From positions 1,736,001-1,800,000 of the forward strand of contig NZ_CP053836.1 of NCBI RefSeq assembly GCF_013201825.1: a stretch of 64,000 nt of DNA, in the 5' to 3' direction. Source of the DNA: Halarcobacter ebronensis. GTDB lineage: Bacteria; Campylobacterota; Campylobacteria; Campylobacterales; Arcobacteraceae. The position numbers were made by a program, and so were the translations under genes. This document shows positions 1 through 6,626 of this stretch, one piece after another. The notes beneath the pieces are model-generated. The model did not search any database, was not told the origin of the DNA, and saw only the letters and a list, made by a program, of their open reading frames with translations. How positions within the stretch are numbered: the first letter of the stretch is position 1; every line of letters begins with the position of its first letter.

Positions 1-483
1 ATTTTTTGGCAATTATGGCTATTTTTGGCTCCAGGGCTTTATGACCATGAGAAAAAACTTGTAATTCCATTTGTATTCTTTGCAACACTTATGTTTTTAA
101 TAGGTGCTTCATTTGCATATTGGGTTGTTGTTCCTTTTGGATTTGATTTTCTTATCAACTTTGGTTCAGCTGTTGTAACAGTTCTTCCTAGTATTGGAAA
201 ATATGTGGGCTTTTTTACAAAACTTCTATTTGGTTTTGGAGTAGCTTTTGAGTTACCAGTTATTACATTTTTCTTGGCAAAAATTGGACTTGTTGATGAT
301 AAGATGTTAAAAGATTTCTTTAAATATGCAGTTGTTCTTATCTTTATATTAGCTGCACTTTTAACTCCACCTGATGTATTAACACAATTTTTAATGGCTG
401 GTCCACTAATCTTACTATATATAGTATCAATCTATATTGCAAAAATATTCAATCCAGCAGCACCTGTTGATGATGAAGAATAA
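1..483 (+). CDS. tatC: Sec-independent protein translocase TatC, 3' part
   Basis: C-terminal part of the multi-spanning TatC subunit, which recognises twin-arginine signal peptides of folded exported proteins in the inner membrane. The frame is open from base 1 and reads IFWQLWLFLAPGLYDHEKK, the conserved periplasmic-loop region of TatC ('FWQIWxFxAPGLYxxE'), so the gene is cut by the window edge rather than starting at the internal TTG at 25. Four hydrophobic segments follow, then a short acidic tail. It overlaps queA by about 10 bases; tatC-queA adjacency is known in Campylobacterota and suggests co-transcription. TatA/TatB lie outside the window if present. Confidence 0.95.
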   Translation: MFWQLWLFLAPGLYDHEKKLVIPFVFFATLMFLIGASFAYWVVVPFGFDFLINFGSAVVTVLPSIGKYVGFFTKLLFGFGVAFELPVITFFLAKIGLVDDKMLKDFFKYAVVLIFILAALLTPPDVLTQFLMAGPLILLYIVSIYIAKIFNPAAPVDDEE

Positions 484-1507
484 GGAACTAAACCCTCTAA
501 AGACTTCAAGCTATGATTACTCTTTACCAAAAGAGCTCATAGCAACCCATCCTGTATATCCAGCTGATAGTGCAAAACTTTTAGTCTATAATAGAGTAGA
601 AAATAAAATCACTCATACTACATTTAAAAATCTTCTTGATTTTATACCAAAAGATAGTTCTATTTTTTTAAATGACACAAAAGTTATAAAAGCAAGAATA
701 TTTGGAACAAAAGAGTCAGGGGGAAGAGTTGAACTATTGTTTAATAAACCTCTTTTTATGGATAGATATCTTGTAATGATAAGAGGAAAAGTAAAAGTCG
801 GTACAAAACTATTTTTTGAGTATGATTTAAGTGTAGAAGTTCTTGAAGTAAACGAAGATGGAAGTAGAGTTGTACACTTTTTTCAAAAAGATAAAAAGCT
901 TGATTTTCTATCACTTGTGGAGATTTTAAATAAAATTGGACATCTTCCTCTTCCTCCATATATGAATAGAGAAGATGAAGATAAAGATAATCAAGACTAT
1001 CAAACTCTTTTTGCAAAAAATTATGGAGCAGTTGCCGCACCAACTGCATCTTTACATTTTACTGAAGAGTTATTAGAGAAAATTAATCAAAATTTTCCTA
1101 TAAATTATCTAACTTTACATGTGGGAGCTGGTACTTTTAAACCTGTAGATGTGGATGAAATACTTTCACATCCAATGCATAGTGAATATTTTGAGATAGG
1201 AATTGAAGCAAAAAAAGCTTTAGATAAAGCAAAAAAAGTTTTGGCAGTTGGAACAACAGTTACAAGAACAATTGAATATTATGCAAGAACAAATAAAATT
1301 CAAGGTGAGTGTGATCTATTTTTAAATCCACTAAACAAGCCAATAAAAGTTGATTATTTGCTTACTAATTTTCACTTGCCAAAATCAACACTAATAATGC
1401 TTATTGCCTCATTTGTAGGATTAGAAAAGACTTTAGAAATCTATAATGAAGCCATTAAAGAGAGATATAGATTCTACTCTTATGGTGATGGAATGTTAAT
1501 TATATAA
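473..1507 (+). CDS. queA: tRNA preQ1(34) S-adenosylmethionine ribosyltransferase-isomerase QueA
   Basis: Transfers and isomerises the ribosyl group of SAM onto preQ1 at the wobble base of GUN-anticodon tRNAs, giving epoxyqueuosine. The protein begins PLKTSSYDYSLPKELIA, the standard QueA N-terminus, and carries the family signatures AAPTASLHFT, LHVGAGTFKPV and LLTNFHLPKSTLIML. About 344 residues, normal for the family. The start is uncertain: ATG at 470 or 473 inside the end of tatC are the closest to family N-termini; the TTG at 437 would add a tail not expected in the family. Translational coupling to tatC is likely. Confidence 0.93.
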   Translation: MKNKELNPLKTSSYDYSLPKELIATHPVYPADSAKLLVYNRVENKITHTTFKNLLDFIPKDSSIFLNDTKVIKARIFGTKESGGRVELLFNKPLFMDRYLVMIRGKVKVGTKLFFEYDLSVEVLEVNEDGSRVVHFFQKDKKLDFLSLVEILNKIGHLPLPPYMNREDEDKDNQDYQTLFAKNYGAVAAPTASLHFTEELLEKINQNFPINYLTLHVGAGTFKPVDVDEILSHPMHSEYFEIGIEAKKALDKAKKVLAVGTTVTRTIEYYARTNKIQGECDLFLNPLNKPIKVDYLLTNFHLPKSTLIMLIASFVGLEKTLEIYNEAIKERYRFYSYGDGMLII

Positions 1508-1519
1508 AAAGGAGATATT

Positions 1520-2322: not shown

Positions 2323-3660
2323 GTGAATAAATTTTCACGTTTAGGATTTATCTTCGCAGCAGCGGGATCTGCTGTTGGATTAGGTAATATTTGGAAGTTT
2401 CCATATATTACTGGTGAGTATGGTGGTGGAGCATTTGTTATTGTGTATCTGCTTTGTATTGTATTTATTGGACTTGTAGTTTTTATTGCTGAATCATATT
2501 TAGGACAAACTTCAGAAGCAAATGTGTCTTCAACTTTTGTAAAGCTCTCAAAAAGTAAAAATTCAAATTGGAAATATAGTGGTTTTATGGTATTTGGAGG
2601 TTTAATTATACTCTCTTTTTACTCTGTTGTATTAGGTTGGATTTTAAACTATATTTTTATCTCTTTTGCTTCATTGCCAGAGAGTAGTGAATTAGCAGGG
2701 AGCTACTTTAATAGCCTTGTTTCTGAAAAAATTGAATTACAAATCTTTTTCCATACTATTATTGCACTTATTACTATTTTTATAGTTTTAAGAGGAGTTA
2801 AAGAGGGAATTGAAAAGATAAATCTAATTTTAATGCCTCTTCTTGGTATAATCCTTTTTGGACTTTTAATATATGCAGTAAATTTAGATAGTTTCTCAAA
2901 GTCAGTGGAGTTTATGTTTAGTGCAAATTGGAATAAAATAGATGAGAATGCTCTTCTTGCAGCTCTTGGACAAGCATTTTTTACACTTTCTCTTGGAATA
3001 GGTACAATCATAACATATGCCGCTTCATTACCAAAAAATGAAAACTTTATAAAGTCATCTCTTTATGTTGCAATTGTTGATACGATTATAGCTATTATTG
3101 CTGGTCTTATAATTTTTGCTTTCCTTTTTGAAGCGGGAGCAGAAAGTAGTGCTGGACCAGGACTTGTTTTTATCTCACTACCTGTTATTTTTCAACAATG
3201 GGGCGTTTTAGGAAATATTATTGCTATTGCATTTTTTACTGCTCTTCTTTTTGCAGGAATAACTTCTGCTGTATCTATGATAGAGCCACCTTTAATGCTC
3301 TTTATAGAAAGATTTAATATGACAAGAAAAAAAGCTGTAGTAATTTGTGGTTCAATTTTCTACTCACTTGGTATTATTGCACTTTTATCAATGTCAAACT
3401 CATTTAAAGATTCACTTACATTTTTTGGAAAAAATGCCTTTGATTGGATGGACTTTTTAACATCATCAATTTCAATGCCAATTGCGGCAATTATGACTTG
3501 TATCTTTTTAGGATACTTTGTAGATAAAAATAAAATGAGGGATAAATTTACTCAACATGCACCTAAGATTGTATTTGATATTTGGTATTTTCTAGTTAAA
3601 TACCTAGTACCTTTTGCAATTGCTATACTCCTTCTTAATAAAATAGGAGTGATTAAATAA
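2323..3660 (+). CDS. Sodium-dependent transporter, NSS (SNF) family, copy 1
   Basis: Inner-membrane sodium symporter of the neurotransmitter:sodium symporter family, normally importing an amino acid or other small amine. The N-terminus carries the family hallmark AAAGSAVGLGNIWKFPY followed by GEYGGGAF (unwound TM1 and TM2 region). 445 residues with roughly 11 hydrophobic segments, as in bacterial NSS proteins. It starts at GTG with TAAGGA eight bases upstream. Its stop overlaps the start of a second NSS gene of identical length (TAATG), so both are translated together. Substrate cannot be told from sequence. Upstream 60 bases are AT-rich and could hold the promoter. Confidence 0.92.
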   Translation: MNKFSRLGFIFAAAGSAVGLGNIWKFPYITGEYGGGAFVIVYLLCIVFIGLVVFIAESYLGQTSEANVSSTFVKLSKSKNSNWKYSGFMVFGGLIILSFYSVVLGWILNYIFISFASLPESSELAGSYFNSLVSEKIELQIFFHTIIALITIFIVLRGVKEGIEKINLILMPLLGIILFGLLIYAVNLDSFSKSVEFMFSANWNKIDENALLAALGQAFFTLSLGIGTIITYAASLPKNENFIKSSLYVAIVDTIIAIIAGLIIFAFLFEAGAESSAGPGLVFISLPVIFQQWGVLGNIIAIAFFTALLFAGITSAVSMIEPPLMLFIERFNMTRKKAVVICGSIFYSLGIIALLSMSNSFKDSLTFFGKNAFDWMDFLTSSISMPIAAIMTCIFLGYFVDKNKMRDKFTQHAPKIVFDIWYFLVKYLVPFAIAILLLNKIGVIK

Positions 3661-4997
3661 TGAATAATTTTTCAAGAATTGGTTTTATACTTGCAGCTGC
3701 TGGTTCAGCTGTTGGATTAGGTAATATTTGGAAGTTTCCATATATTACTGGTGAGTATGGCGGTGGAGCTTTTGTTCTTATCTATTTAATTGCAGTTAGT
3801 CTAATTGGTCTTACAATTTTTATTGCTGAATCATATATAGGGAAAGAAGCAAGAGTTAATGCTGCAGATGCCTATCAAATAGTATCAAAAAGTAAAAATA
3901 GCTCATGGAAGTTTGCTGGGTTTCAAATTGTTACAGGTATTGTAATTCTCTCTTTCTATGCATTTATCATAGGTTGGATTTTAAACTATATTCTAATCTC
4001 TTTTACTGGTTTCCCTAATGATATACAAAAAGCAGAAAATCTATTTAATAACTTAGTTACAAAGGAAATTGGCAAGCAAATTTTATTTCATACAATAGTT
4101 ACTTTAACTGTTGCATATATTATTGTAAAAGGTGTTAAAGAGGGAATTGAGAAACTCAATCTTATTTTAATGCCACTACTTGGACTTATTTTATTTGGAC
4201 TTTTAATATACTCATTTACTCTTGATTCATTTTCAAAAGCTCTTGAGTTTATGTTTATGCCTAACTGGGATAAAGTTAATGAAAACTCTATCCTTGCAGC
4301 AGTTGGACAAGCATTTTTTACACTATCTTTAGGGATGGCTATTGTAATAACATATTCAGCATCAATGGATAAAAAAACAAATTTCGTAAAATCTTCTATT
4401 ATGGTTGCTGTTGTTGATACAGCTGTAGCACTTGTTGCTGGTATTATAATTTTTGCATTTTTATTTTCAGCTGGAGCTAAAAGTACAGCTGGTCCTGGAC
4501 TTGTATTTATCTCTCTTCCTTTAATCTTCTCTACATGGGGTATTTTTGGACAAATAGTTGGATGTGCCTTCTTTGTAGCTCTTCTTTTTGCTGGTATTAC
4601 TTCTGCTGTATCTTTGCTAGAGCCACCTTTGATGTATTTAATGGAGAGATATAAAGTAAGTAGAGTAAAAGGAACTATTCTTTGTAGCCTATTTTTCTAC
4701 ATTTTAGGGATTTTTGCTCTATTATCAATGAGTGAAGATTTTGGAAAATTTTTAACTTTCTTTGAAAAAAATCTATTTGATTGGTTAGATTATTTAACTT
4801 CATCAATTGCAATGCCGATTTCAGGTTTTATTACTTGTATCTTTTTAGGATATTTTGTTGATCAACAAGAGTTAGAAAAGAAGTTTACAATCCATATAAA
4901 CAAAATTGTATTTAAAATTTGGCTTGCTCTAATTAGATATATTGTTCCAATTGCAATTATAATACTATTTTTAAATAAATTAGGAATTATAAAATAG
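3660..4997 (+). CDS. Sodium-dependent transporter, NSS (SNF) family, copy 2
   Basis: Second NSS symporter, 445 residues, the same length as the preceding gene and colinear with it from the first residue (MNNFSRIGFILAAAGSAVGLG against MNKFSRLGFIFAAAGSAVGLG). The two share most membrane segments and differ mainly in loops, so this is a tandem duplication that has diverged. Start ATG overlaps the upstream stop by one base. A bidirectional hairpin follows the stop. Whether the two act as separate transporters of different specificity or together is unknown. Confidence 0.92.
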   Translation: MNNFSRIGFILAAAGSAVGLGNIWKFPYITGEYGGGAFVLIYLIAVSLIGLTIFIAESYIGKEARVNAADAYQIVSKSKNSSWKFAGFQIVTGIVILSFYAFIIGWILNYILISFTGFPNDIQKAENLFNNLVTKEIGKQILFHTIVTLTVAYIIVKGVKEGIEKLNLILMPLLGLILFGLLIYSFTLDSFSKALEFMFMPNWDKVNENSILAAVGQAFFTLSLGMAIVITYSASMDKKTNFVKSSIMVAVVDTAVALVAGIIIFAFLFSAGAKSTAGPGLVFISLPLIFSTWGIFGQIVGCAFFVALLFAGITSAVSLLEPPLMYLMERYKVSRVKGTILCSLFFYILGIFALLSMSEDFGKFLTFFEKNLFDWLDYLTSSIAMPISGFITCIFLGYFVDQQELEKKFTIHINKIVFKIWLALIRYIVPIAIIILFLNKLGIIK

Positions 4998-4998
4998 A

Positions 4999-5024
4999 AA
5001 AAGTAGGTTTAACCTACTTCTTTC
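4999..5024. terminator. Bidirectional rho-independent terminator
   Basis: Perfect inverted repeat AAGTAGGTT-T-AACCTACTT at 5001-5019 between convergent genes, with A/T runs on both sides. It would end the NSS transporter transcript on the plus strand and the helicase transcript on the minus strand, where the T-rich tail is stronger. It overlaps the last codons of the helicase. Confidence 0.75.
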
Positions 5025-6288
5025 TAAAGTTTCTATTTGCATCTCTTTTTGTAGTTTTCTTTGATTTTGGAGGCTCTTTTTTTACAGGAGTTTTTTTACC
5101 CTTTATTTCACTAAGTTTCTTTTTAGCTTGAGCTTTTTGTCTTGGTTGTCTATCTTTTAATGGGAATTCATCATGAACCAATCTTTTTACATTTAGTCTT
5201 AAATCTCTCTCAATTTTTGTAAACCTATTATAATCCTCAGTAGTTAAAATAGTAATAACCTCACCTCTGTTCCCTGCTCTTCCTGTTCTCCCAGTTCTGT
5301 GCGTAAAATCGTCTGTTGTTTCAGGTAAAGAGTAGTTTATAACCAAAGGGAGTTTTTCTATGTCAAGCCCTCTTCCAGCAATATCTGTAGCAATTAAGAC
5401 TTGAACTTTTTTATTCTTAAAATCTTTAATTGATTGAACTCTTTGTTTATATTCAATTCCACCATGAATAGCAGCAGCTTTTATTTTAAACTGTCCAAAA
5501 TACTCAATTGCAGAATCAACACTATCTTTTTTGTTTACAAAAAGAAGTATTTGTTCATATCCAGATTCAAGGATAAGTTTTGCAACTAGCTCTTTTTTCT
5601 TCGTTTTATCAATTTTATATGCAAAATGCTCTATTAGATGAACAGTGTCTCTTCTATCATGAACTTGTACAGTAACAGGATCTTTTAAAAACTCTTTTGC
5701 AAGTTTGTTTATATTTTGAGAAATTGTTGCCGAACACATAACCATTTGTCTATAAGGAGAGCATAAAGATAATACCTTTTCTATCTCTTCAATAAAACCC
5801 ATCTCAAGCATAGTATCAGCTTCATCTAAAACTATAAAATTTACTGATTCTAAGTTTATAAACCCTTCACCTACTAAATCCAATAATCTCCCTGTTGTTG
5901 CTACAACAATATCAACTCCAGAAGATAAAACTTGAATCTGTTTAGTTCTACTTGTTCCACCAATTACTTTTGTATGTTTTAGTTTTAAAAATTCTCCTAA
6001 ATCTGCAAGTGTTTTAGATACTTGTTCAGCCAACTCTCTAGTTGGAACTAAAATAAGCCCTCTTAAAACTCTATTTTTATAATTTAGATTTGAATTTATC
6101 TTTTTTATCATTGGCAGAATATAAGCTGCTGTTTTCCCTGTACCAGATTTTGAGGCTGCTACTACATCTATACCTTTGTCAATAATTGGTATAACTTTTT
6201 TTTGAACTTTTGTAGGAGAATCATACCCTTGCTTTTCAATAGCTTTTAGTATTAATTCGTTTAGGTTAAATTCACTAAATTTATTTAT
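5014..6288 (-). CDS. DEAD-box ATP-dependent RNA helicase with candidate ATA start
   Basis: RNA helicase for ribosome assembly or mRNA turnover. The frame contains all core motifs: Q-motif region (SPTKVQ), motif I ASKSGTGKT, Ia PTRELAEQ, II LDEADTM, III CSATIS, and VI HRTGRTGRAG, plus a lysine-rich tail. The first ATG at 6111 lies after motif I and would remove the ATP-binding site. The frame stays open to a TAA just upstream of 6288 and has no ATG, GTG or TTG there. An ATA at 6288-6286 sits six bases after AAAGGA and is followed by Asn-Lys-Phe-Ser, as expected for such an N-terminus. I therefore place the start at ATA. A sequencing error or a loss of the start are alternatives. The upstream small gene ends 11 bases before it, so coupling is possible. 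Confidence 0.82.
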   Translation of the reverse strand: MNKFSEFNLNELILKAIEKQGYDSPTKVQKKVIPIIDKGIDVVAASKSGTGKTAAYILPMIKKINSNLNYKNRVLRGLILVPTRELAEQVSKTLADLGEFLKLKHTKVIGGTSRTKQIQVLSSGVDIVVATTGRLLDLVGEGFINLESVNFIVLDEADTMLEMGFIEEIEKVLSLCSPYRQMVMCSATISQNINKLAKEFLKDPVTVQVHDRRDTVHLIEHFAYKIDKTKKKELVAKLILESGYEQILLFVNKKDSVDSAIEYFGQFKIKAAAIHGGIEYKQRVQSIKDFKNKKVQVLIATDIAGRGLDIEKLPLVINYSLPETTDDFTHRTGRTGRAGNRGEVITILTTEDYNRFTKIERDLRLNVKRLVHDEFPLKDRQPRQKAQAKKKLSEIKGKKTPVKKEPPKSKKTTKRDANRNFRKK

Positions 6289-6299
6289 CTTTTATCCTT

Positions 6300-6626
6300 T
6301 TAAAATGAGCTAGACATAATCTCGTCATCTAAGTATTCATCAATTTTTTTTACTAAATCTTCATAAGAGATTTTACCATCTTTGTTAAATAGAACTATCT
6401 CTTCACCAAAATCATTTTTTATGAAGTGCTCTTTTTCAATAACCTTTTCATATAATCTTCTAATATCTGTTGGAGAGTCTAAATCATTGTACAAAAACCA
6501 ATTTGCAGTTGTATTTTCATATCTTATTAGACCATAAGTATTCTCTTTATTGACATAGTCTTGAATTGTACCATTTTCAAAAATAGCACCAACAACCATA
6601 TCACTATCATTTAAAATCATTTCCAT
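6300..6626 (-). CDS. Conserved-looking hypothetical protein, 108 aa
   Basis: Acidic soluble protein that I do not recognise. No signal peptide or membrane segment. The C-terminal part (FNKDGKISYEDLVKKID, about residues 80-97) resembles the second half of an EF-hand calcium loop and helix, but a full DxDxDG loop is not present, so this is only a resemblance. It lies directly upstream of the DEAD-box helicase on the same strand with 11 bases between, suggesting one transcript. The ATG start is the first Met; MEMIL offers an alternative Met two codons on. Confidence 0.6.
   Translation of the reverse strand: MEMILNDSDMVVGAIFENGTIQDYVNKENTYGLIRYENTTANWFLYNDLDSPTDIRRLYEKVIEKEHFIKNDFGEEIVLFNKDGKISYEDLVKKIDEYLDDEIMSSSF

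Follow-up and report, generated by a model that had tools for sequence, protein, structure and literature searches.

Background

Where does translation begin in a gene whose reading frame offers no ordinary start codon ahead of its first conserved motifs? The question is raised by a helicase gene of Halarcobacter ebronensis, located within a 64,000-nucleotide stretch of contig NZ_CP053836.1 (hereafter the window; coordinates are those of the window). An earlier note on this DNA proposed that the frame starts at ATA, and left a choice between a genuine AUA start serving low or IF3-controlled synthesis, a start-codon mutation and a one-base sequence error. Initiation at AUA, AUU or AUC (collectively AUH, or ATH in DNA) is a documented but rarely described feature of bacterial genes. 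A survey of translational GTPases names infC and a second gene with AUU, and expects some lepA genes to use AUU as well, while work in a reconstituted system reports that IF3 disfavours mismatched third-base pairs. For A. butzleri, the genome paper describes open reading frames (ORFs) predicted with ATG, GTG and TTG only, and a cold-shock study deals with deaD (Abu_0042).

Methods

Orthologs of the helicase were gathered by a protein search of 100 relatives and of 104 genomes of the window's family. A match at E 1e-98 or better was obtained in 82 of the 104 family genomes, the other 22 being without a match at that threshold. G050 (locus L186), which groups with ATG-starting paralogs in the tree, was removed from these 82. 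The resulting set of 82 orthologs consists of 81 family genomes and one Sulfurovum-labelled metagenome-assembled genome (MAG; L093), and carries 16 genus labels. One row (L280) ends at a contig end, and another (L256, from G112) carries a TAA within the matched stretch, which points to a decayed gene copy or a mistake in the sequence. A quick tree was built from rows beginning at the invariant Phe4, with the start codon itself outside the tree data. A broad homolog set of 80 loci, L093 included, was also compiled, and rows were dropped if their match began past residue 25. Start codons of other genes were taken from a 464-kb sample of the window's genome.

Results

The helicase gene occupies positions 5014-6288 of the minus strand when read from the ATA codon at 6288-6286, and comprises 424 codons followed by TAA (5016-5014). 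Around the start, the minus strand reads AAAAGGA-TAAAAG-ATA-AAT-AAA-TTT-AGT-GAA-TTT. The Shine-Dalgarno (SD) sequence AAGGA (6299-6295) stands 6 nt upstream of ATA, and an in-frame TAA (6294-6292) closes the frame just 5' of the start, with AAG as the single codon between them. From this TAA down to an ATG at 6111-6109, which is helicase codon 60, the frame contains no ATG, GTG or TTG. The segments which we take to be the Q-motif region (residues 22-29; 6225-6202, minus strand) and motif I or P-loop (SGTGKT, residues 48-53; 6147-6130, minus strand) both lie 5' of that ATG. The earlier note's reading of the letters was thus accurate on three points: the placement of motifs Q and I ahead of the ATG at 6111, the frame open to a TAA without ATG, GTG or TTG, and the ATA six bases past AAAGGA.

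Judged from its domains (DEAD, PF00270, E 9.9e-46, 156 bits; Helicase_C, PF00271, E 1.7e-30, 105.9 bits), its motif I and its invariant residues, the predicted product is a DEAD-box RNA helicase. The best NCBIfam scores were close to one another (RhlE 344.2, RhlE1 343, CshA 341 and SrmB 337 bits) and all fell under the equivalog cut-offs; the RhlE model NF007882, for instance, needs 743 bits and gave 344. The protein shares core domains and motifs with RhlE, CshA, SrmB and DbpA, but scores below the cut-offs of such equivalogs and belongs to a clade of its own. In the quick tree, a branch divides the 82 orthologs from 16 paralogs, and the RhlE-like paralogs that these bacteria carry fall outside the ortholog clade. 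At the 3' end, a terminator-like hairpin (5022-4998, minus strand; a consensus match only) overlaps the helicase stop codon. Beyond it, on the plus strand, two adjacent and similar membrane transporter-like ORFs of 445 amino acids (2323-3660 and 3660-4997) overlap by one base and appear to stem from a tandem duplication.

Prediction of ORFs with ATG-type starts gives only a truncated helicase of 365 amino acids, because the first canonical start is the ATG at 6111. A protein begun there would be without Q motif and P-loop. Among 23 aligned orthologs, F4, Y22, P25, T26, Q29 and SGTGKT at 48-53 are invariant, and all precede codon 60. In 16 close ortholog pairs, differences at codon positions 1, 2 and 3 numbered 41, 16 and 114 over codons 2-56, and 50, 15 and 148 over codons 63-117. 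This resemblance implies selection at the protein level on the stretch that precedes the first ATG, and together with the conserved upstream residues it leads us to reject the truncated start at 6111.

The aligned start codon is ATC in 37, ATA in 26 and ATT in 19 of the 82 orthologs, and in none of them ATG, GTG or TTG. Its alignment to the window's ATA is exact in 79 and off by one to three codons in three. All 82 carry AAGGA, at 6 nt from the ATH codon in 75, at 5 nt in four and at 7 nt in three. In 78 orthologs, no ATG, GTG, TTG or CTG occurs on the way from the in-frame stop 5' of the start to Phe4, the exceptions being L031, L032, L214 and L256. Since ATH stands at the same place in every ortholog, chance is excluded as the origin of the window's pattern. 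A mutation or sequencing error in this genome alone could appeal to the single base that separates ATA from ATG, and to nothing more; with ATG in none of the 81 other orthologs and ATA in 25 of them, several congeners included, this explanation is refuted and its probability is negligible. Comparison of the base at 6286 among relatives, which the earlier note had suggested, never found G in the 82 orthologs. Of the interpretations offered in that note, a real AUA start is thus strongly supported, and mutation and one-base error fall away. The real finding is the family-wide conservation of AT(A/T/C) rather than the ATA of a single genome.

Initiation might still take place elsewhere, either at 6111 or, in other species, at nearby downstream canonical codons. 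The first canonical codon falls at index 54 or later, past the P-loop, in 47 of the 82 orthologs, at 29-53 in seven, at 10-28 in eight and at 9 or earlier in 20; a total of 28 thus have one within 28 codons downstream of the ATH start. The 20 with a canonical codon within nine codons are the counterpoint to an AUH start, as internal initiation there could yield a near-full-length helicase, though at codon +6 it would lie about 24 nt from the SD. Automatic ORF calling also picks 6111. Against such starts stand the invariant residues 5' of 6111, P-loop included, the coding-type substitutions in codons 2-56, the 47 orthologs without a canonical codon before codon 54, and an SD placed for AUH in every ortholog. 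We regard a start elsewhere as very improbable.

On the tree, the wobble base of the start codon requires no fewer than 14 substitutions among A, T and C, and none of them leads to G. By itself the absence of G is modest evidence, because G makes up 5.2% of fourfold sites (30 invariant fourfold columns) and three of those 30 columns also lack it; we have accordingly downgraded it as proof of selection. The excess of ATC is the stronger evidence: this codon accounts for 45% of helicase starts but for 10.8% of internal Ile codons (3,104 in all), and its share stays at or below 21% in every one of 16 Ile columns, all figures uncorrected for shared ancestry. The wobble base is thus not merely drifting, and what selection keeps is a degenerate AUH rather than one fixed codon.

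Among 408 coding-like ORFs in the 464-kb sample of the window's genome, the helicase alone has an SD-linked ATH at the start of its frame without a nearby canonical alternative. Coding signal 5' of the first canonical start was flagged in nine of the 408. Seven of these nine, most of them near stretch ends, have no SD-linked ATH or CTG candidate and are probably shadow ORFs; the ninth (L300, 6944-7723) has an ATT with SD at codon 34, adjoining its first canonical start. The near absence of ATH as a start elsewhere in the sample is the main point on codon selection. It also bears on the idea that AUH is read efficiently in these bacteria through special recognition, whether by a dedicated initiator tRNA, an altered IF3 or a trans factor. 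Nothing positive favours that idea, although the enrichment of ATC would be compatible with any specific recognition, and use of AUH by one of 408 sampled ORFs argues against it; we consider it highly unlikely. In the sample, 348 longer ORFs have ATG as their first canonical codon in 263 cases, TTG in 66 and GTG in 19. With this crude choice of start, AGGA lies at 5-7 nt in 115 of the 348, versus AAGGA in all 82 helicase orthologs.

Other helicases begin differently. The remaining DEAD-box helicases of the window's genome (L001, L002 and L003) have ATG or TTG starts; TTG is the apparent start in L002 and L003, two of four in the genome, so non-ATG starts are frequent within this small set. Thirteen tree rows hold RhlE-like paralogs from related bacteria, all of them with ATG starts, and helicase homologs of other phyla nearly all have ATG too. 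In the broad homolog set, two loci lack ATG, GTG and TTG at the expected place: L127, with ATG four codons on, and L160, with ATT. The latter belongs to a second, RhlE-like family, in which L207 and L216 (one gene of G075), L217 and L160, a small related clade, have no canonical start. In L207 (gene at 401-1516, minus strand), L217 and L160, ATT stands 7 nt past TTAGGA, and the other examined loci of this family start with ATG, TTG or GTG. L160 comes from a Sulfurimonas MAG and shares 82% identity with L207, from that order too; together with a GC content of 27.8%, this would fit an Arcobacteraceae-like family for the window. Within a comparison limited to helicases, the ATT of this family looks like an independent gain.

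Upstream of the helicase, an ORF of 108 amino acids (6300-6626, minus strand) ends with its stop 11 nt before ATA. Searches of Pfam and NCBIfam at E 0.001 gave no match for it. Congeners share the region, with matching DNA in 15 of the 16 genomes of the genus that were searched, a count that takes in the window's own. In this genus, coupling to the upstream ORF might serve the start and make a poor codon harmless, as the stop-to-start distance and the arrangement kept in congeners would allow. Outside genus labels g1 and g10, however, TATAAT lies 30-56 nt 5' of the start in 50 of 66 orthologs (at 80-106 nt in six), and AUH is kept there too. Coupling is therefore hardly probable as the explanation, and neither frameshifting nor coupling to an upstream gene can be the general cause, as most genera have a nearby TATAAT instead of that arrangement.

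The position of TATAAT implies a leader that is probably very short. The helicase leader gave no Rfam match, and three folded leaders were unremarkable (z-scores 0.46, -0.87 and -0.28), which rules out a riboswitch or structured leader. With a short leader, no Rfam match and no unusual fold, there is little else there to regulate translation, and in this otherwise ordinary leader the start codon is the sole odd element.

Discussion

From conservation we infer strongly that initiation takes place at AUH; at one further remove, precedents in other genes suggest that output may be low, that IF3 may control this start and that a physiological trigger may exist. The ordinary initiator tRNA (fMet) would read AUH, here AUA, and the strong SD AAGGA would position it from 6 nt upstream. 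A mispaired third base would make initiation inefficient and, as for infC, sigR and ccpN, sensitive to how rigorously IF3 checks the codon. Kept by selection, such a codon would hold the helicase low in normal cells and let output rise under a shortage of IF3 relative to 30S subunits or a loss of initiation fidelity. Low or IF3-controlled synthesis had been offered in the earlier note as the purpose of AUA, and the present analysis is consistent with that suggestion. That the AUH start is genuine, has a strong SD and is kept for low, IF3- and fidelity-dependent helicase synthesis is the account we favour, with a confidence somewhat better than even.

The same ortholog evidence also fits a static throttle, in which a real AUH start fixes a constant low level of a helicase harmful in excess, without conditional regulation. 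The AUU start of pcnB in E. coli (cited in PMC1780047 and PMC13009471) is described as limiting expression, and harm from excess product has been argued for that gene. In these descriptions pcnB resembles the present case as an RNA-metabolism enzyme throttled by AUU, and differs in encoding a poly(A) polymerase, not a helicase. A weak SD or a GTG or TTG codon would do equally well for a constant low level, yet a strong SD and AUH occur together in all 82 orthologs; this is an argument only. Because the SD is kept strong beside a weak codon, control specific to the start codon fits better than generally weak initiation, and for the same reason we prefer conditional control to a static throttle, which we regard as possible but less probable.

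A bolder extension of conditional control is that the AUH start may act as a homeostatic sensor of small-subunit quality, a feedback loop contained in one codon and shared by the family. A failure of ribosome assembly or of IF3 control, such as cold might bring, would lower fidelity and raise translation from AUH, and the extra helicase would help to remodel RNA or finish ribosomes. If so, ATT in the second helicase family would represent convergent use of the same logic. This is speculation, and we think it rather unlikely to hold; it is based on a cold effect reported for E. coli, where a review describes immature 30S subunits and lower initiation fidelity.

Several known systems are instructive. 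Like the helicase gene, infC (AUU in E. coli, AUA in S. aureus) joins a strong SD to AUH in a gene of the RNA and translation machinery, with the non-AUG choice conserved. It differs in being autoregulated by its own product, IF3; the window's product is a helicase and not IF3, hence autoregulation of the infC type does not apply to it. In the window's order, TTG rather than the AUH of E. coli and S. aureus opens infC, as each of the 31 loci examined shows (L063-L092 and L212; 60 found). In the window's genome, infC is located elsewhere and has TTG. The classic IF3 feedback codon is therefore not in use in these bacteria, a point against the account favoured above, and infC is ruled out as a companion AUH gene.

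In Streptomyces, sigR is reported to have a GTC start that is repressed by IF3 and to be of a kind that start callers miss (PMC5472188). Both sigR and the helicase gene keep a noncanonical codon behind a strong SD, and neither is infC; but the sigR codon is GTC, its product is a sigma factor and its conservation concerns one genus, whereas the helicase ATH spans 16 genus labels. In S. aureus, infC and ccpN are reported to start with AUA and cvfC1 with AUU; in poor medium, ccpN and cvfC1 gave about 10% of the output from AUG, and in rich medium ccpN gave up to 30% (PMC13009471). The ccpN and cvfC1 starts are also conserved and have strong SDs; they differ in that they belong to a transcription regulator and a small protein and were measured experimentally, whereas the evidence for the helicase start is from sequence. 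The pncA gene (BBE22) of Borrelia burgdorferi is reported to begin at AUU, the full length being known from a crystal structure, and PncA was truncated in databases because AUU was not considered as a start (PMC13398362). The truncated database protein is the likeness to our case; pncA, in contrast, encodes a single metabolic enzyme.

Conclusions

A conserved AUH start is a kind of element already known, to which the helicase adds a member; in the open-licence literature we found no DEAD-box helicase with an AUH start. Few bacterial genes are known to use an AUH start as control, and an RNA helicase now joins them. The breadth of conservation is unusual, with all 82 orthologs and 16 genus labels involved. 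For many of these genomes, gene callers restricted to ATG, GTG and TTG will report a helicase that lacks both Q motif and P-loop. A start codon that is ATA, ATT or ATC and never ATG suggests that the helicase is deliberately throttled or regulated at the first step of translation. Control by IF3, if shown, would tie an RNA-remodelling enzyme directly to the stringency of initiation.
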